A stretch of 8,757 bases of DNA, taken from Anaerolineales bacterium (lineage in GTDB: Bacteria; Chloroflexota; Anaerolineae; 4572-78; NAK82). Below the pieces are notes generated by a model that was not told the DNA's origin, ran no database searches, and was given only the letters and a program-made list of their open reading frames with translations. Positions 1,085-8,757 of the stretch are shown here, piece by piece. The stretch lies in assembly GCA_024643945.1 (NCBI GenBank), contig JAHELX010000109.1, positions 4,028-12,784 of the forward strand, in the 5' to 3' direction. Position numbers and translations under genes: made by a program. The stretch's first letter is position 1. Each line of letters starts with the position of its first letter.

Positions 1085-1894
1085 CTATGCGTCAACTATT
1101 TTTTCACCGGTCATCCGTCGAATGGTAGGGAACAAGGCCGGATCAAATTCGCCGATCCGTTCCGGCCCCAGTTGAATCAGGTACTCGCGGATACGATGGG
1201 CGTCGACCAATAGCCCGCTCACGTCAATGCCCATACAGGTTGGTTCAAAGTGGGCCAGCTTAGGAATGGCCCGCGTCAGCACCTTCATTGCGCCGCGCCA
1301 ATTACCCTGCTGCACGTGATACAGGGACACACCCACCTGGAGAATCCCCTGGTAGAGCAGCCGGATGGAACGAGGTTCTTCCATCCAGGCTGCTTCGATA
1401 GTTTCGTGACACTCGAAGAATTTACGCTGATTGAACTCCTCGATACCCCGTACAAGGCCGGGTGGTGGGGGCTCGCCACATAGGCTCGAGTCGGGCTGCC
1501 AGGCCCATTTTTCCACCAGAGAGGACAGATTGGTTGCCACGGCCGACCGCCCGACAACGGCGTCGCAGCCAGCCTCCGACGCTCGTTGCCGCAACTCCAG
1601 GTCGACGTGAGGACCGTAGGCCAAAATCGGCACGTGTCGCCACTGGCTTTCGTTTTTGGCATGGTCTACCAGGTGCTCCCAGTCGAGAGTCCTGGAGCCA
1701 ACGTTGACCAGCACCAGCGCTGGCGCGCCCTTCAGCAGCCGGTCAAAGGCCGGGGTCGTATCGGCAAAGACCGGTTCGTAGCCCATCCCCCGCAGTTTTG
1801 CCTCAAGGCCAGCGCCGAACATCATGTCATCTTCCAGCACGACGATGGTACGCGCCAGGGATCTACTCCTTTTGGGTTGGAAGGATGGAGGCAT
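1085..1894 (-). CDS. Degenerate receiver (pseudo-REC) fused to a DUF309 domain
   Basis: Two-domain soluble protein, 269 aa from ATG 1894. Residues about 15-130 have a response-regulator receiver fold pattern: TIVVLEDD (acidic pair at 21-23), a hydrophobic strand ALVLVNV, VPILAYG, and GCDAVVGR. The phospho-acceptor Asp is replaced by Asn64, the Thr/Ser switch position is Gly94 and the invariant Lys is Arg116, so it should not be phosphorylated normally. Residues about 148-216 match DUF309 (COG1547): FNQRKFFECHETIEAAW, then LLYQGILQVGVSLYHVQQGN and GAMKVL. The molecular function of DUF309 is not known. The start is uncertain. ATG 1894 lies inside an inverted repeat without a good ribosome site, while an in-frame CTG at 1858 has AAAAGGAG with a 7-nt spacer and would give ARTIVVLEDD, the typical receiver N-terminus. 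It lies between the S8 protease and the dehydrogenase genes, same strand. Confidence 0.85.
   Translation of the reverse strand: MPPSFQPKRSRSLARTIVVLEDDMMFGAGLEAKLRGMGYEPVFADTTPAFDRLLKGAPALVLVNVGSRTLDWEHLVDHAKNESQWRHVPILAYGPHVDLELRQRASEAGCDAVVGRSAVATNLSSLVEKWAWQPDSSLCGEPPPPGLVRGIEEFNQRKFFECHETIEAAWMEEPRSIRLLYQGILQVGVSLYHVQQGNWRGAMKVLTRAIPKLAHFEPTCMGIDVSGLLVDAHRIREYLIQLGPERIGEFDPALFPTIRRMTGEKIVDA
1866..1870 (-). promoter_or_regulatory. Strong Shine-Dalgarno inside the annotated 5' end of the pseudo-REC/DUF309 gene
   Basis: The minus strand shows AAAAGGAG, then TAGATCC, then CTG at 1858-1856, in frame with the receiver. The site is downstream of ATG 1894, which suggests that translation may really begin at the rare start codon CTG 1858. 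Confidence 0.5.
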
Positions 1895-1945: not shown

Positions 1946-3202
1946 CTATTGCCCTCTCAGCAAGCGTTTAATCTGCTCCAGACAACCGACGGGGGGTTGC
2001 GGTTCTGGGCCGGGCGGCGTTGGCGTTGGCTCGGGTGGCTGAGGCAAGTCTGGTGGTATTTCGCTGGTAATTTTCTGGTAAGCGGCAAATACCTGGCCAA
2101 GTCCACTGCCCTGGGCGTTGGGATCCTCCCCCAAATCCCGGGCCGCGGTCATCAATGCCCACTTGACCTGGTTGGGCGTGAGATCCGGTCTGGCCTGTAG
2201 CAGAAGAGCCGCGCTGCCAGTGGCGTGCGGGGTGGCCATGCTGGTCCCCGATAGCTCCACGTAGCCGGGCGCGACGACTGGTCCCAGTGCAGTACCTTTG
2301 GCTTGGGCGGCCACGATGCCGGCCCCGGGGAAGACCAGATCGGGTTTGACCCGGCCGTCAGAGGTGGGACCGCGCGAGGAGAAATTGGTCACCTTATCGT
2401 TGTCGTCCACAGCGCCAATTGTGATGACCCAGCGCGCGCACCCTGGTGAGCCGACAGTGGAAGGCAATGGCCCTGAATTGCCTGCTGCCGTGCAGACGAC
2501 AACACCATGTTGCTGTACTGCCTGGTCGCACAGCGTCGAAAGTGCATCGGTGCCGTCGCACGGCCCACTGCTCCCCAGTGACAGATTGATGACATTGACA
2601 CCTTGGTCCACTGCCCATTCGACGCCGGCCATCACACCGCTCATTGTCCCTCCGCCGTTGGCATCGAGCACTTTGGCTACATACAGGCTGGCGGCAGGCG
2701 CCACGCCCCGGTACTTCCCGTCAGAGGCAGCACCGCTCCCAGCAGCAGTGCTCGCCACGTGGGTACCATGCCCATTGTCGTCGATCCCCTCGCCACCGAC
2801 GAAGCTGGTCATCGTGACTATTCGCCCCTCGAAGTCGGCGTGAGTGGGGTCAATGCCGGTATCTACGATGCCAATTTTAACCCCTTCGCCCATGAAGCCG
2901 GCCTCCCACATCAGCGGAGCCTGGATGTGGGGCACTGACACGTTCAGGCAGGTGTGAACCGGCAGGTCGGGCCAGATATACTCCACCGTCTCGTCGTCGC
3001 TGAGAGCCTCGATGTCTGACATGCGCACGCTCATAGCCGTGGCTGGTATCAATCGGTAACTATAGGTTACCTGGGCGTCGGCCACCACTTGCTGCGCCGC
3101 AAACACGCCCGGCTTGTGGCGGACGATCACGCCAACGGGCTCGCCCACGGCAGCAGCGGTCATTTCTACCTGCAGCTCACTTGCGATTTTGGCTTTATTC
3201 AT
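1946..3202 (-). CDS. Subtilisin-family S8 serine protease with cis I9-like prodomain, no signal peptide
   Basis: Serine endopeptidase of 418 aa. Residues about 20-83 (VGVIVRHK ... LIPATAMSV ... VEYIWPDLPV) look like an I9 propeptide fold. The catalytic domain follows: Asp114 (GIVDTGID), His145 (DDNGHGTHVA), oxyanion-hole Asn242 (TAAGNSG) and Ser321 (LSGTSMATPHATG), in correct order and spacing, so it should be active. After about 380 comes a proline-rich linker (PQPPEPTPTPPGPEPQPP), then a short tail CLEQIKRLLRGQ. The N-terminus (MNKAKIASELQ) has no hydrophobic signal segment, so it is predicted cytoplasmic unless exported in a non-standard way. Start: ATG 3202 follows AAGGACA and matches the domain start; the frame is open 90 bases further up to ATG 3292, but that extension overlaps the upstream small gene and has no homology look. 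It lies 41 nt after the I9-like gene, so both are probably co-transcribed. Confidence 0.93.
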   Translation of the reverse strand: MNKAKIASELQVEMTAAAVGEPVGVIVRHKPGVFAAQQVVADAQVTYSYRLIPATAMSVRMSDIEALSDDETVEYIWPDLPVHTCLNVSVPHIQAPLMWEAGFMGEGVKIGIVDTGIDPTHADFEGRIVTMTSFVGGEGIDDNGHGTHVASTAAGSGAASDGKYRGVAPAASLYVAKVLDANGGGTMSGVMAGVEWAVDQGVNVINLSLGSSGPCDGTDALSTLCDQAVQQHGVVVCTAAGNSGPLPSTVGSPGCARWVITIGAVDDNDKVTNFSSRGPTSDGRVKPDLVFPGAGIVAAQAKGTALGPVVAPGYVELSGTSMATPHATGSAALLLQARPDLTPNQVKWALMTAARDLGEDPNAQGSGLGQVFAAYQKITSEIPPDLPQPPEPTPTPPGPEPQPPVGCLEQIKRLLRGQ

Positions 3203-3243
3203 TGTCCTTACCTGTTCGCTTTCTGGCGTTTGTTGTTCGCCAT

Positions 3244-3501
3244 CTACTGCATGGTTGTAACCGGCTGGTCCTCTTCGACTTTGAGGACCCATTTCTCGTC
3301 GAGCAGCAGCAGTCCCGCTGCCGCCGGGCCTGTCACTGACACGCCTGGTACCAGCTTAAACTGGTGCCCCACCTGCAAGCCTAGCTCCGCCAGACGCGGC
3401 AGATGGGGCGTCGGGTCGCCGTCGGTACGAACGATCAAGGCCACCGACTGCTCCGCGTGGGCGGCCAGCTTTTGGTGCAACGCTTTGTCAATTTTACCCA
3501 T
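3244..3501 (-). CDS. Small stand-alone I9-like (subtilisin propeptide fold) protein
   Basis: 85-aa soluble protein, first gene of the leftward operon. Its pattern VALIVRTDGD (20-29), VGHQFKLVPGVSV (44-56), LLLLDEKWVLKVEEDQPV (64-81) parallels the prodomain of the protease encoded next (VGVIVRHK, YSYRLIPATAMSV, ALSDDETVEYIWPDLPV). It ends in the VxxVExDxPV-type edge expected of I9 propeptides and I9-type inhibitors. The inferred role is a trans-acting inhibitor or folding helper of the downstream S8 protease; this is not shown. There is no signal peptide or membrane segment. Start: ATG 3501 is preceded by GGGGAGGGAGAGACT, a strong ribosome site; an in-frame ATG at 3537 lies upstream of the predicted transcription start and is therefore unlikely. 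The assignment rests on pattern similarity only. Confidence 0.75.
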   Translation of the reverse strand: MGKIDKALHQKLAAHAEQSVALIVRTDGDPTPHLPRLAELGLQVGHQFKLVPGVSVTGPAAAGLLLLDEKWVLKVEEDQPVTTMQ

Positions 3502-3525
3502 AGTCTCTCCCTCCCCAATGTCCTC

Positions 3526-3555
3526 ATCATACCACATTCACCGCGCACTGGTCAA
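3526..3555 (-). promoter_or_regulatory. Sigma70-type promoter of the leftward protease operon
   Basis: On the minus strand, TTGACC (3555-3550), 18 bp, then TGG-TATGAT with the -10 at 3531-3526 (an extended -10, TG-N). The expected transcription start is near 3519. This gives an 18-nt leader made almost only of the GGGGAGGGAGAG ribosome site and the ATG at 3501. Confidence 0.7.
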
Positions 3556-3690: not shown

Positions 3691-3718
3691 ATTGTCACGG
3701 GAATCGGACAATATTCCC
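3691..3718. repeat. Two interlocked inverted repeats just upstream of the NYN-operon promoter
   Basis: ATTGTC (3691-3696) pairs with GACAAT (3707-3712), and GGGAAT (3699-3704) pairs with ATTCCC (3713-3718). The arms overlap in a staggered way, so only one hairpin could form at a time. The element ends one base before the -35 region at 3720, a typical position for an operator. Confidence 0.45.
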
Positions 3719-3719
3719 A

Positions 3720-3748
3720 TTGGTCTTAATGCCCAGGTATGCTATAAT
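3720..3748 (+). promoter_or_regulatory. Extended -10 promoter of the NYN/kinase operon, predicted leaderless
   Basis: TGCTATAAT (3740-3748) is a perfect extended -10. A weak -35 (TTGGTC, 3720-3725) lies 17 bp upstream. Transcription would start 6-7 nt downstream, at about 3754-3755, that is at the ATG of the NYN gene (3754). No Shine-Dalgarno precedes that ATG, which agrees with a leaderless mRNA. Confidence 0.75.
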
Positions 3749-3753
3749 CAAGT

Positions 3754-4218
3754 ATGGCGATTCTGATTGATGGACATAACCTTATTGGCAAAATGCCTGA
3801 CTTGCGGCTGGATGATCCAGTCGACGAGGAGAAGTTGTTGGTCCGGCTGCGGGCATACCGGGCCCATACCGGCAAGCATCTTGTCGTCTACTTCGATCCG
3901 GGAATAACCTATCAGTCGCCAGCGCGCCGGTCTAAAGGGGGTATCAGTATCCGCCAGGCCGGCACCGGTCAGCACGCCGATGATCTGATGATACGCGATA
4001 TCAGCCGTCATCACAATCCGAGCGAACTAACCGTGGTCACGTCTGACCATGCCATTCAACAAGTGGCGCGGCAGTATGGCGCTCGGGTGGTTGACTCGTC
4101 AACCTTTGCTGCGGAACTGAGTCGTCCTTCCGAGAAAGACGACGTTTCCGAGACGCCACCTTTGTCCGAAGAAGAAATTGAGGAATGGTTGGCGATTTTT
4201 GGACAATCGGATGAGTGA
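3754..4218 (+). CDS. YacP/Rae1-like NYN-domain ribonuclease
   Basis: 154-aa soluble protein of the NYN (PIN-like) nuclease fold, closest in pattern to the YacP/Rae1 group (PF05991), whose Bacillus member is a ribosome-associated mRNA endonuclease. Acidic metal-site residues are all present: Asp6 and Asn9 (ILIDGHNLIG), Asp48 (VVYFDPG), Asp76/Asp77 (QHADDLMI) and Asp98 (VVTSDHA). So it is probably catalytic, cutting RNA with divalent metal; the target is unknown. The C-terminus is an acidic helix (SEEEIEEWLAIFG) that could bind a partner. It starts at ATG 3754 directly at the predicted transcription start, with no ribosome site. Its stop overlaps the start of the next gene by 8 nt (ATGAGTGA), so translation is likely coupled to the UPF0175-like histidine kinase. 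It could also act as a toxin-like component (see findings). Confidence 0.88.
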   Translation: MAILIDGHNLIGKMPDLRLDDPVDEEKLLVRLRAYRAHTGKHLVVYFDPGITYQSPARRSKGGISIRQAGTGQHADDLMIRDISRHHNPSELTVVTSDHAIQQVARQYGARVVDSSTFAAELSRPSEKDDVSETPPLSEEEIEEWLAIFGQSDE

Positions 4219-5374
4219 TACCAATTCATTGACAAAAGCCCAGCACTTACCCGAAGTCGAAACACAACGAATAGAGATTGAAGTCCGGCACGAACTACTC
4301 GACCTGGGCGTGACTGCCGAGGAGATTCAGCAACAGGTTGAACTCTGGCTGATTGTCTCTCTCTTCAAGCAGGAGAAGATCACTTCAGCCTGGGCGGGCG
4401 AGTTGTGTGGTGCTGGTCGTGAAGCCTTCCTGGACAAGCTGGACGAACTAGGGGTGCTCTACATTGACGCGCCGCGTGAAGAATCGGGCGAGGTGCGTGC
4501 TGCGCCAGCCGTCTCGTTGCTGGCTGATGACCGCGCGACTTTGGCTGACCTAAACCGTGAGTTGGTTCGCATCAACCGCCGTCTACGTGAGGCTAACCAG
4601 AAAATTCGTGAGGCCGACCGCTTGAAGAGCGAGTTTGTGGCCACAATCAGTCACGAATTACGCACTCCGCTCAATACGATCATCGGCTTTGCCAAGTTCA
4701 TGCTCAATGGAAGCGCTGGACCTCTCACCGACATGCAGCGCACTGATCTCACTGCTATTTACTCTAGTGGTCAACACCTGTTGGGGTTGGTCAATGACAT
4801 TCTCGATCTATCCAAGATCGAAGCCGGCAAAGTCACGCTTAATAAAGAGCAACTCGACTTCCACGAAGTTGCCGCCGGCATTATGTCGTCAGCTATCGCT
4901 TTGGTAGCCGATAAGTCAATCGAATTGAAAGAAGAAATTGCTCTTCATCTTCCACCTATCTTTGCTGACCGCAAGCGGGTGCGCCAGATCATCTTGAACC
5001 TTGTTTCCAATGCAGCGAAATTCACTGAGCAGGGCCATATTGCCCTGCGGGTGAAACCTGTCACTGAGAATGGCAAGCCGTACATTTTATGCGCTGTAGA
5101 AGACACGGGGATCGGCCTGCGCCAGGAAGATGTTCCTACTATCTTTGAGGCTTTTCGCCAACTTGACAGCTCGTCGGCGCGGCGGGCTCAGGGGACAGGG
5201 CTGGGGTTGCCCATCAGCCGTCGGCTGGCCGAACTCCACGGTGGGCGTATGTGGGTAGAAAGTGAATTGGGGGTCGGTAGCACCTTCTATTTCACATTGC
5301 CCGCCGACAACAGTAACGGTAGCTCATCTGCACAAGATATGGTTGATCGGAGGTGGGAAGGATTCGATGAGTGA
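4211..5374 (+). CDS. Cytosolic histidine kinase with N-terminal UPF0175-like domain
   Basis: 387-aa sensor kinase without membrane segments. Residues about 24-90 resemble UPF0175: a leading helix (RHELLDLGVTAEEI), then ELWLIVSLFKQEKITSAWAG and ELCGAGREAFLDKLDELGV, matching the family pattern LYxxGKIS...AAELAGxSRxEFLxxLxExGI. A coiled coil follows (about 107-140, NRELVRINRRLREANQKIRE). The kinase core has His148 (SHELRTPLN), N-box Asn267 (NLVSNAAKF), G1 box Asp298 (VEDTGIGL), F box (IFEAFRQLD) and G2 box (GTGLGLPISRR), so it should autophosphorylate. Start: ATG 4211 overlaps the NYN stop within ATGAGTGA; an in-frame ATG at 4178 would overlap that gene further and has no support. The stop overlaps the next gene by the same octamer. 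UPF0175 proteins often neighbour PIN-type toxins; here the neighbour is an NYN nuclease. Kinase assignment is certain; the UPF0175 match is by eye. Confidence 0.93.
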   Translation: MSDTNSLTKAQHLPEVETQRIEIEVRHELLDLGVTAEEIQQQVELWLIVSLFKQEKITSAWAGELCGAGREAFLDKLDELGVLYIDAPREESGEVRAAPAVSLLADDRATLADLNRELVRINRRLREANQKIREADRLKSEFVATISHELRTPLNTIIGFAKFMLNGSAGPLTDMQRTDLTAIYSSGQHLLGLVNDILDLSKIEAGKVTLNKEQLDFHEVAAGIMSSAIALVADKSIELKEEIALHLPPIFADRKRVRQIILNLVSNAAKFTEQGHIALRVKPVTENGKPYILCAVEDTGIGLRQEDVPTIFEAFRQLDSSSARRAQGTGLGLPISRRLAELHGGRMWVESELGVGSTFYFTLPADNSNGSSSAQDMVDRRWEGFDE

Positions 5375-6650
5375 CCGAAGGCGAATCCTGTACGTTGAAG
5401 ACGACGTGCCCAGCCGTATGCTGGTCAGCCAGGTGTTGCAAGTGACCGGTTATGAGGTGGTGGAAGCTGAGGACGGTATGACTGGTATTCGCTTGGCGCA
5501 AGCAACAAGGCCAGACCTGATTTTGATGGACATCAATATGCCTGGCCTGGACGGCTACGAAGCAGCCACCAAAATCAAGAGTCTGCCCGGACTGAGTAAC
5601 ACGCCCATCATCGCTGTGACTGCCAATGTGATGGAGGGGGACCGGGAGCGCGCCCTTACGGCTGGCTGTGACGGCTACCTGCCCAAGCCGATTGACGTAG
5701 ATGCCTTGCCCGATCAGATCCGTGCATTTTTGGGTGGCCGACGCGAGAGGGTAGATGAGGCAGCAGAGCGCAGCTATCTGCGTGAGTACAGTGAACGATT
5801 AGTCGATAAGCTGCAGGAAAAAATCGCTGCCCTCACTGCTGCCAATGAGCAACTCCGTCGCTCCGACGAAATGAAATCGCGCTTCATCTCCATCGCTGCC
5901 CACGAGTTGCGTACACCGTTGACTATTATTCGTGGCTACCTGGATATTTTACTGGAACCTGATGGGCCGCTGAGCGAGGCCACCCCCAGTGCGGAGACAA
6001 TGCTCCAGGGTATATCCATTGGCGTACAACGACTTCATGAGATTGTGGAGGACATGCTTGACGTAACTCGCATCGAGGCCGATACTCTCGATTTGCAGAT
6101 TGCACCGGTGCGATTGGCCGAGGTCGCCGAGAAGGTGGTGACTTCGTACCTGGATGCTGCGAAGAGGCGGAACTTGTCGCTCGTATTAGAGTCCCTGGAA
6201 CATCTGCCTACCATCTGGGGGGATGGCTCTCGCATCCAGCAAATAATGGTCTATCTCCTTGGCAATGCCGTCAAATACACGCCCAATGGGGGCAGCATTA
6301 CTGTGAGCGGACGGGTTGTGGGCCAGGAAGCAAGCACCGCTGCGTCCGACCGCCTACAGAATGAACGCTTTGTAGAGCTCATCGTGGCCGACACCGGAGT
6401 AGGCATAGATCCCAGCGAACAGGATCGTATCTTTGAGCGATTCTACGAAGTGCGCGATCCACGTCTGCATAGTACCAGCAAAACTGACTTTATGGGTGGT
6501 GGAGCAGGGTTGGGGCTGGCCATCGCACGCGGGGTAGCCGAAGCCCACGGCGGCTGGATCTGGGTGGAAAGCGAAGGCTATGACCCCGAACGTTGTCCTG
6601 GCAGCCAGTTCCACCTGATACTGCCGGTAGGTACGCCTCCCAATCGTTAA
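5367..6650 (+). CDS. Receiver-histidine kinase (REC-HisKA-HATPase)
   Basis: 427-aa soluble protein. The N-terminal receiver has an intact phosphorylation site: Glu11/Asp12/Asp13 (YVEDDVPS), acceptor Asp55 (LILMDINMPGLDG), Thr85 (AVTAN) and Lys107 (YLPKPID). A coiled coil spans about 133-170. The kinase core has His179 (AAHELRTPL), N-box Asn300 (LLGNAVKYTPNGG), G1 Asp342 (ADTGVGID), F box (IFERFYEV) and G2 (GGGAGLGLAIARG). About 17 extra residues lie between the N and G1 boxes, and more between the F and G2 boxes, as in many Chloroflexota kinases. Start: ATG 5367 in GATGAGTGA overlaps the preceding kinase stop and has GGGAAGGA upstream; the longer frame from ATG 5262 would overlap that kinase by over 100 bases. 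Likely role: takes phosphate from the upstream kinase on Asp55 and modulates its own kinase output. No DNA-binding output domain is encoded nearby. Confidence 0.95.
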   Translation: MSDRRRILYVEDDVPSRMLVSQVLQVTGYEVVEAEDGMTGIRLAQATRPDLILMDINMPGLDGYEAATKIKSLPGLSNTPIIAVTANVMEGDRERALTAGCDGYLPKPIDVDALPDQIRAFLGGRRERVDEAAERSYLREYSERLVDKLQEKIAALTAANEQLRRSDEMKSRFISIAAHELRTPLTIIRGYLDILLEPDGPLSEATPSAETMLQGISIGVQRLHEIVEDMLDVTRIEADTLDLQIAPVRLAEVAEKVVTSYLDAAKRRNLSLVLESLEHLPTIWGDGSRIQQIMVYLLGNAVKYTPNGGSITVSGRVVGQEASTAASDRLQNERFVELIVADTGVGIDPSEQDRIFERFYEVRDPRLHSTSKTDFMGGGAGLGLAIARGVAEAHGGWIWVESEGYDPERCPGSQFHLILPVGTPPNR

Positions 6651-6751: not shown

Positions 6752-8757
6752 GTGAGCGAGCGCAAAGCTATTTGGCCTCTTTACCTGGGCGTTTTCACCA
6801 TCAGTATGGCAGTGCTAACTCTGGAAATCGCCCTCACCCGTATCTTCTCTGTCTCTCTCTGGTATCATCTCGCCTTTATGGTCATCAGTACAGCGCTGCT
6901 TGGATTCGGTGCTAGTGGCACCTTTCTCACAGTGCGTCGAGACCTGTTGGAGAAGAATCTGGAACGTAATCTCACCCGCTTTGCCGGGCTGGCGGCTGTT
7001 GGGATAGTGGTCTCCTTTGCCTTTATGATTCGGTTGCCTCTCGACCCGCTGGGTCCGCTGGCAGAGGGTCTTACTCCCGGTGCCCGGGCCTGGCAGACGG
7101 GCTTGCTCATCCTGTTGCTACTGGCCGATTACGTTTTGGTAGTTATCCCCTTTTTCTTTGCCGGGCTTACCCTGGGGACCGCCTTTTCGGCTATGGCGAA
7201 GCGCATCAGCACCCTTTACTTCGCCGACCTCATAGGCGCTGGGTTGGGCTGCCTGTTAGTTGTTGGCGTGTTGTGGATTCTGCCTGGGCAGGGGGTAGTG
7301 CTCTTTGCGGCAGGACTGGCAGCACTGGCTGCATTCTTCTTCAGTAGACAACAGACGGTAGATGCCAGATGGCGCGGGGTGGAGCACCAATCGAGTGCTT
7401 CGCGGGCCACGTTTCTGGCTGCGGCCGGCGTGATTCTTCTCTTCGCTCTGTCACCTGTCGCCGACCGCTTTCTGCCGCTATACATTCCTCCCAGCAAGCC
7501 ACTGTACCAGGCGCACGCCGATCCTACCATCAACCTGGTCTACACCGGCTTCACCCCTTTCGCCCGCGTAGACGTCATGTACAAAGAAGGTGCCAGTTTG
7601 GGGGCTTGGGGCCTGAGCCCACGCTGCACGGCGCCGCCTCCCCCTGAACAACTTTTCATCACTATTGATGCCGCGGCTATCACCACCATTACCCGCTTCG
7701 ATGGTGACCTGGAGCGCATTGGTTTTGTCAATTGTGCGCCCAGCAGTCTGGCCTACCAGGTGCGCGACGAACCGCTGGAGAGTGCGCTCCTCATCGGACC
7801 TGGCGGCGGCATTGATGTGCTCACCGCCTATTACAATGGCGCAAGGCGTATCATTGGCGCCGAGATTAATCCCCTCATCATCAACCTGGTCGCTGACGAT
7901 GCCTTGTATCGAGACTACGCTGGTGGACTCTACACTGATTATCCCCAGATACGGGTCGAACTGGCTGAGGGCCGTAATTTCATTGCTCGCTCGAAAGAAA
8001 AGTACGATCTGATTCAATTCTCGCAAGTGGATACCTGGGCAGCGGCCGCTTCTGGGGCTTACAGCCTAAGCGAGAACTTCCTGTATACTACCGAGGCTTT
8101 CCTCGATTATTATGACCATCTGACCGATGACGGAATGCTGGCCGTCGGGCGCTGGTATTTTGAGCCGCCGCGCCAGGCCTTCCGGCTGGTGACGATCGGC
8201 ACCACGGCACTGGAACAGCGGGGGGTTGCCGACCCGGCGCAGCACTTTGTGGTGGTGCGTGCTGGTGGTACCTCCACTTTCATTATGAAGAAGTCTCCCT
8301 TCACTGCCGATGAGATTGCCCGTTTGCGGCGTGTCGTAGACAACCTGGGCTTTACCATGCTTTACGCCCCCGATGAGACTAGTCCTGATAACTGGTTTGT
8401 GCGCTTCTTCAACGCTCCTGATCGGGCGCAGTTCTACCGAGATTATCCCCTCGACGTGACGCCAACGACGGACAACCGCCCCTTCTTCTTTGAATATTAT
8501 GGCTGGAGTAACTTTGGCGATTTTCGCTCTGGCAAAGTGACGTTGGTCATTTTGTTGGTCCAGGCGCTGTTACTGGCGAGCGCATTCATCTTGTGGCCCT
8601 TGTGGCGCTTCCAACGGCGGGGCCTGGCAACGCGTGGCTCGCGCCGCTTCATCATCTATTTCGCAGCACTGGGCATTGGCTTCATCTTCATCGAAATTGG
8701 GCTAATGCAACGTTTCATTCTCTTCTTGGGCCACCCTGTCTATTCGACCTCGGTCGT
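6752..8757 (+). CDS. Membrane-embedded spermidine-synthase-like SAM-dependent protein, 3' end cut by window
   Basis: 668 codons are visible and the frame is open to the window end. The start is GTG 6752, with AAGGAG 11 nt upstream. The N-terminal part has about six or seven hydrophobic segments, for example near residues 7-28 (GVFTISMAVLTLEIAL), 36-56, 78-98, 118-148 (LLILLLLADYVLVVIPFFF), 160-180 and 185-203. A cytosolic domain of the spermidine synthase fold follows: SAM-type glycine loop ALLIGPGGGID (345-355), acidic ribose-binding Glu371 (GAEINPL), then YDLIQFSQVDTW (418-429) and LSENFLYTTEAF. Near the end there are two more membrane segments (LVILLVQALLLASAFILWP and FIIYFAALGIGFIFIEIG) with further ones presumably beyond the edge. 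The sequence order matches the roughly 800-aa membrane 'spermidine synthase-like' proteins of Chloroflexota and relatives. True polyamine synthesis is unproven: the first Asp of the usual DSxDP catalytic motif is missing. Confidence 0.88.
   Translation, partial: MSERKAIWPLYLGVFTISMAVLTLEIALTRIFSVSLWYHLAFMVISTALLGFGASGTFLTVRRDLLEKNLERNLTRFAGLAAVGIVVSFAFMIRLPLDPLGPLAEGLTPGARAWQTGLLILLLLADYVLVVIPFFFAGLTLGTAFSAMAKRISTLYFADLIGAGLGCLLVVGVLWILPGQGVVLFAAGLAALAAFFFSRQQTVDARWRGVEHQSSASRATFLAAAGVILLFALSPVADRFLPLYIPPSKPLYQAHADPTINLVYTGFTPFARVDVMYKEGASLGAWGLSPRCTAPPPPEQLFITIDAAAITTITRFDGDLERIGFVNCAPSSLAYQVRDEPLESALLIGPGGGIDVLTAYYNGARRIIGAEINPLIINLVADDALYRDYAGGLYTDYPQIRVELAEGRNFIARSKEKYDLIQFSQVDTWAAAASGAYSLSENFLYTTEAFLDYYDHLTDDGMLAVGRWYFEPPRQAFRLVTIGTTALEQRGVADPAQHFVVVRAGGTSTFIMKKSPFTADEIARLRRVVDNLGFTMLYAPDETSPDNWFVRFFNAPDRAQFYRDYPLDVTPTTDNRPFFFEYYGWSNFGDFRSGKVTLVILLVQALLLASAFILWPLWRFQRRGLATRGSRRFIIYFAALGIGFIFIEIGLMQRFILFLGHPVYSTSV

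Follow-up and report, generated by a model that had tools for sequence, protein, structure and literature searches.

A histidine kinase with an antitoxin-type N-terminal domain is encoded directly behind a Rae1-type nuclease gene in an Anaerolineales bacterium

When a nuclease gene runs into the gene of a histidine kinase, and the kinase begins with a domain of antitoxin type, the question arises whether that domain restrains the nuclease or has passed into the service of the kinase. We analysed such a locus in a stretch of 8,757 nucleotides from an Anaerolineales bacterium (contig JAHELX010000109.1), here called the window. In the original prediction the genes of the nuclease (NYN) and the kinase (HK1) overlap by 8 nt, and the open reading frame coordinates agree (4211–4218). 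To this two-gene picture we add a third coupled gene, RRHK, whose start again lies within the preceding gene (8 nt overlap with HK1). We read NYN, HK1 and RRHK as a translationally coupled three-gene operon, a reading that forms part of a wider explanation to which, taken whole, we give an even chance. No output regulator was found among the genes of the operon.

Table 1. Positions of the features discussed, in window coordinates
Feature	Position	Strand	Details
DUF309 protein gene	1085–1894	-	81.4 bits
Subtilase gene	1946–3205	-	PF00082, 217.8 bits
97-aa open reading frame	3244–3537	-	beside the subtilase gene
Promoter-like element	3714–3748	+	TTCCCATTG at 3714–3722; TATAAT at 3743–3748; kept ahead of NYN at related loci
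NYN, NYN_YacP (Rae1-type) nuclease gene	3754–4218	+	154 aa; PF05991, 62.4 bits
NYN C-terminal motif LSEEE..EWL.IF	about 4162–4197	+	residues 137–148
HK1, UPF0175-HisKA-HATPase histidine kinase	4211–5374	+	387 aa; ATG at 4211; Pfam
UPF0175-like domain of HK1, HTH-type	4298–4483	+	residues 30–91; PF03683, 34.1 bits
Signalling helix of HK1, from N-domain to phospho-acceptor helix	4505–4705	+	residues 99–165; AlphaFold2 model
HisKA of HK1, H-box SHELRTP	4625–4828	+	residues 139–206; PF00512, 76.7 bits
HATPase_c of HK1	4967–5308	+	residues 253–366; PF02518, 102.2 bits
RRHK, receiver-HisKA-HATPase protein	5367–6650	+	427 aa from ATG 5367; Pfam; orthologues in 6/6 HK1-clade loci
Large membrane protein gene	6752–8755	+	no Pfam match over cut-off

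UPF0175 had been proposed at the N terminus of HK1, a proposal to be dropped if a profile search gave no match. Pfam, however, placed PF03683 there above the curated cut-off of 27.9 bits, and the first 140 residues searched alone gave 36.5 bits. The proposed fusion to a complete kinase was also borne out, since HisKA with its H-box and HATPase_c were both matched in HK1. Fold matches for the domain were weak. A search with the HK1 N terminus gave 58 related protein clusters; PF03683 is part of a kinase in 53 of them, and the remaining five span only 27–32% of the query, so the HK1 match is more than chance. One set of fusions (group 1) has the domain in all 53 clusters that cover the region; W46 is invariant in 59 rows, and L29, F73, L74, L77, D78 and Y84 are at least 90% conserved, which argues that the group 1 domain is under constraint. 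HK1 is not the small stand-alone protein beside a PIN or DUF3368 gene that a UPF0175 member is expected to be, being a 387-residue kinase with NYN_YacP as its neighbour. In the AlphaFold2 model of HK1 the helix that follows the domain runs on unbroken into the phospho-acceptor helix, and residues 1–130 modelled alone (mean pLDDT 87.3) also contained the helix, at 99–129. The stretch ahead of the phospho-acceptor helix is the place of kinase input domains.

RRHK matched Response_reg (97.3 bits), HATPase_c (78.6 bits) and HisKA (61.3 bits), and its receiver keeps the aspartate within DLILMDINMPG. From their domains and gene coupling, HK1 and RRHK look as would be expected of a phosphorelay.

NYN was well above the NYN_YacP cut-off (24.6 bits), and its family profile matched the Bacillus subtilis YacP structures 5mq8 and 5mq9 with E of about 5e-12. 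D6, D76 and D98 are invariant in 38 aligned rows and agree with the trio of active-site aspartates that PMC11346440 gives for NYN nucleases. The same paper assigns YacP a part in ribosome-dependent mRNA decay and unites NYN and PIN nucleases in one superfamily; ribosome-dependent cleavage is known only from B. subtilis. Exactly one PF05991 match per genome was found in all nine genomes with related NYN loci, as well as in G299. In 199 genomes of the class, PF05991 matched at E ≤ 0.001 in 128 and over the cut-off in 122, of which one or more are doubtful (G037, for instance, is a 926-aa frame); six of the 199 had two matches, the second being a frame of 928–989 aa below the cut-off. With one match per genome, NYN has the look of a cellular gene kept in single copy, not of a mobile toxin, and we take it to be the cell's single Rae1-type mRNA endonuclease, probably ribosome-dependent. 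To our knowledge, little is known about the regulation of Rae1-type nucleases. The C-terminal motif of NYN, with W145 invariant in 38 rows, is kept in relatives with and without HK1, and is thus not an HK1-specific contact.

The TATAAT box ends 5 nt ahead of the NYN start codon, so transcription would begin at this codon or right beside it, probably giving a leaderless mRNA. The pattern TTCCCATTG-N18-22-TATAAT gave eight matches in nine related genomes, six of them at NYN (G001, G004, G005, G235, G265 and G299), and none in a reversed control; it was absent from G002, G108 and G281. The box of L001 and L002 sits 27 nt farther from NYN, on its 5′ side, than that of the window. A shorter pattern, CCCATTG-N18-22-TATAAT, was less specific, with 19 matches, seven at NYN, and one control match. 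When any −10-like box before NYN was accepted, 20 of 70 loci had one, against 9.2 expected from shuffles. The promoter-like element thus appears largely NYN-specific in the nine related genomes.

Whether the three genes are kept together was assessed from both ends of the NYN–HK1 pair. Among the best 80 of 309 related NYN loci, an HK1 orthologue was found behind NYN in five (L001, L002, L007, L013 and L016), missed neighbours being a soft result because some contigs end near NYN. RRHK lies directly behind NYN, without HK1, in L012 and L015. In L003 and L004 neither kinase is there, and NYN is followed at once by the gene for the large membrane protein, which in the window comes after RRHK; this looks like the gain or loss of both kinases together. 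The nuclease, therefore, does not need the relay. An HK1-anchored profile search of 396 class genomes, scoring five candidates per genome, returned six matches of 502–567 bits, the next best scoring 418 bits. All six kinases of this clade (G001, G002, G108, G004 and G005, which carry the five loci in the order given above, and G299) are encoded directly 3′ of the sole NYN_YacP gene of their genome and 5′ of RRHK. No HK1-clade kinase away from NYN was found among the 396 class genomes, absences there being soft since many are, by title, draft metagenome assemblies and the class samples come without completeness figures. Taking the nearest ATG as the HK1 start in relatives, the overlap with NYN is 8 nt in the window, L001, L002 and L016, 14 nt in L013, and 1 or 4 nt in G299, whereas in L007 HK1 starts 11 nt past the end of NYN. 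In cluster data, 13 of 53 HK clusters shared their longest-contig size value with NYN clusters (120 of 169 listed), compared with a mean of 0.55 and a maximum of 3 for shifted values; chance may account for one of these matches (2739).

The UPF0175 domain is less constant than the gene pair. It scores over the cut-off in only two of the six linked kinases (G001 and G002). The HK1 of L007, the one group 2 fusion whose contig neighbourhood was read, has a decayed copy, with 33.8 bits to the group 2 profile over the first 49 profile positions and no PF03683 match in Pfam, and in L013, L016 and G299 the domain is absent. The domainless kinases do not form one clade (AU p 7e-5), and the domain is absent in more than one kinase lineage. 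Since the NYN–HK1 pair is kept with the domain present, decayed or missing, the linkage is independent of it; dispensable in some lineages, the domain is perhaps not the main input. The original prediction was to be dropped if a genome survey found the two genes apart; they were together in six of six loci, whether or not the domain was there.

The relatives of the domain point to its source. A profile of the fused domain found the fusion in two of 396 class genomes (G001 and G002), and its next matches were stand-alone proteins, mostly of about 90–110 aa; a UPF0175 match over the cut-off, of any kind, occurred in 214 of the 396. By pattern, a DUF3368-type start lies downstream in 19 of 28 stand-alone loci, and in 20 with L147, added by eye, at least one of the nine unflagged loci (L147) being a miss of the pattern. 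Fifteen of these 20 pairs have a 4-nt overlap between the UPF0175 gene and that of the nuclease, and one pair checked with Pfam (L122) gave 76.3 bits for UPF0175 and 52.7 bits for DUF3368. The nearest stand-alone proteins being encoded mostly 5′ of DUF3368-type nucleases, the fused domain is antitoxin-like in origin. PMC2701414 predicts that COG2886/UPF0175, through an HTH resembling the Fis type, acts as antitoxin to PIN nucleases, and PMC6929052 reports UPF0175 as a putative antitoxin in Geobacillus; the common partnership with PIN-type nucleases, assumed in the original prediction, agrees with these sources and with the stand-alone loci.

The fused copies, however, lack two traits of these close relatives. 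The mean net charge of the HTH stretch is −3.6 in 53 group 1 rows and −3.2 in 24 group 2 rows (one of 25 left out for length), in contrast to +3.8 in the 28 close stand-alone proteins, a set chosen for its resemblance to the fused profile; the ranges are −5 to −2 for group 1 and +1 to +6 for the close set. In a broader set of 44 stand-alone proteins (46 of 48 loci counted, two of them the fusions) the charge runs from −1 to +3, and group 2 (down to −1) touches its low end. The HTH of the fusions is therefore acidic where that of close relatives is basic. The tail of the stand-alone proteins is also missing, the signalling helix standing in its place.

These results bear on several readings of the locus. 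In the model of the original prediction, HK1 would bind NYN through an antitoxin, its UPF0175 domain, with phosphorylation either freeing the nuclease or keeping it in check. UPF0175 proteins of this kind do precede DUF3368 nucleases as predicted antitoxins, NYN nucleases belong to one superfamily with PIN nucleases (PMC11346440), and the NYN and HK1 genes overlap and remain paired; yet the pair persists where the domain is decayed or gone, NYN_YacP is single-copy with HK1 behind it in only five of the best 80 loci, and both the basic charge and the tail are lost in the fusions. A type II toxin–antitoxin system would have its nuclease encoded with the antitoxin, and this does not fit the loci of the domainless kinases, in which NYN persists with no such domain next to it. 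We consider an antitoxin role towards NYN very unlikely, although HK1 or its phosphorylation might act on the nuclease by another route. A simpler alternative is that the genes share a promoter for expression reasons, the kinases serving an unrelated pathway and the UPF0175 domain being a leftover on its way out. This would suit a domain decayed or missing in four of the six linked kinases and in more than one lineage, an NYN gene without kinases in most loci read (best 80 of 309), and the direct succession of NYN and the membrane-protein gene in L003 and L004. It sits badly with linkage in six of six loci with no HK1-clade kinase found elsewhere in the 396 class genomes, and with the constraint on the domain in group 1 (53 of 53 covering clusters, conserved residues), and we regard it as somewhat unlikely.

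Stand-alone antitoxins often regulate their own operon. By the same token, HK1 could be a kinase tethered to DNA, its HTH binding the operon promoter and phosphorylation altering autoregulation. The domain is indeed an HTH relative (PMC2701414), and a conserved promoter-like element lies 5′ of NYN, but the HTH stretch of the fusions is acidic, and the same element is present where HK1 is domainless (G004, G005 and G299) and where RRHK adjoins NYN without HK1 (G235 and G265). This makes such tethering, in our judgement, highly improbable. That the phosphorelay directly gates a ribosome-associated endonuclease, with the antitoxin-derived HK1 domain binding either the Rae1-like NYN or the ribosome complex that carries it, and phosphorylation of HK1 and RRHK setting its activity, also seems unlikely.

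The explanation that we prefer overall, finely balanced between right and wrong, is that the kinase pair is co-expressed with a single Rae1-like nuclease, and that an antitoxin HTH has been turned into an input or dimerisation domain of the kinase. A UPF0175 antitoxin-type gene would have been the source of the HK1 N-terminal domain. The comparison of the sequences, in which the charge argument is indirect, suggests that the borrowed domain has come to work for the kinase, in input or pairing, and not as an antidote to the nuclease, and that the fused HTH may no longer bind DNA. HK1, probably cytosolic, would hand its phosphate on to the RRHK receiver. The strict tie between HK1 and NYN suggests, we infer, that the pair monitors or influences Rae1-type mRNA decay and the state of translation, possibly in connection with translation stress.

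The other genes of the window were also inspected. The 97-aa frame is weakly like the N-terminal part of the subtilase (27% over 41 residues) and might, as a guess, be a free-standing propeptide-type inhibitor; it and the subtilase gene are both kept in L001. The N-terminal stretch of the DUF309 protein is receiver-like by eye, without the phospho-acceptor aspartate, and gave no Pfam receiver match. The large membrane protein, with orthologues behind RRHK in L001 and L002, looks spermidine-synthase-like.

The locus may represent the conversion of an antitoxin-type HTH into part of a kinase, and among the relatives that part can still be seen decaying or gone. The tie of a kinase pair to a single-copy Rae1-type nuclease makes a possible connection of two-component signalling with ribosome-dependent decay of mRNA open to direct test. 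If the gating reading were true, signal transduction would be linked to mRNA cleavage itself. No description of this layout was found in the full-text literature searched, mostly papers outside subscription, in line with the original statement that no such system was known. Compared with a two-component kinase and its receiver-kinase partner, HK1 and RRHK have the HisKA and HATPase_c domains, the receiver aspartate and the overlapping genes; they differ in an N-terminal domain derived from an antitoxin-type HTH, in the link to a nuclease and in an operon without an output regulator. The HK1 N terminus is homologous, over the curated cut-off, to the UPF0175/COG2886 antitoxins that accompany PIN or DUF3368 nucleases, whereas its copy is fused to a kinase, has an acidic HTH and a replaced tail, and has an NYN_YacP neighbour upstream. 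NYN, finally, resembles Rae1/YacP of Bacillus subtilis in its PF05991 match, conserved aspartates and single copy, and differs from it in sharing an operon, probably leaderless, with a kinase pair.
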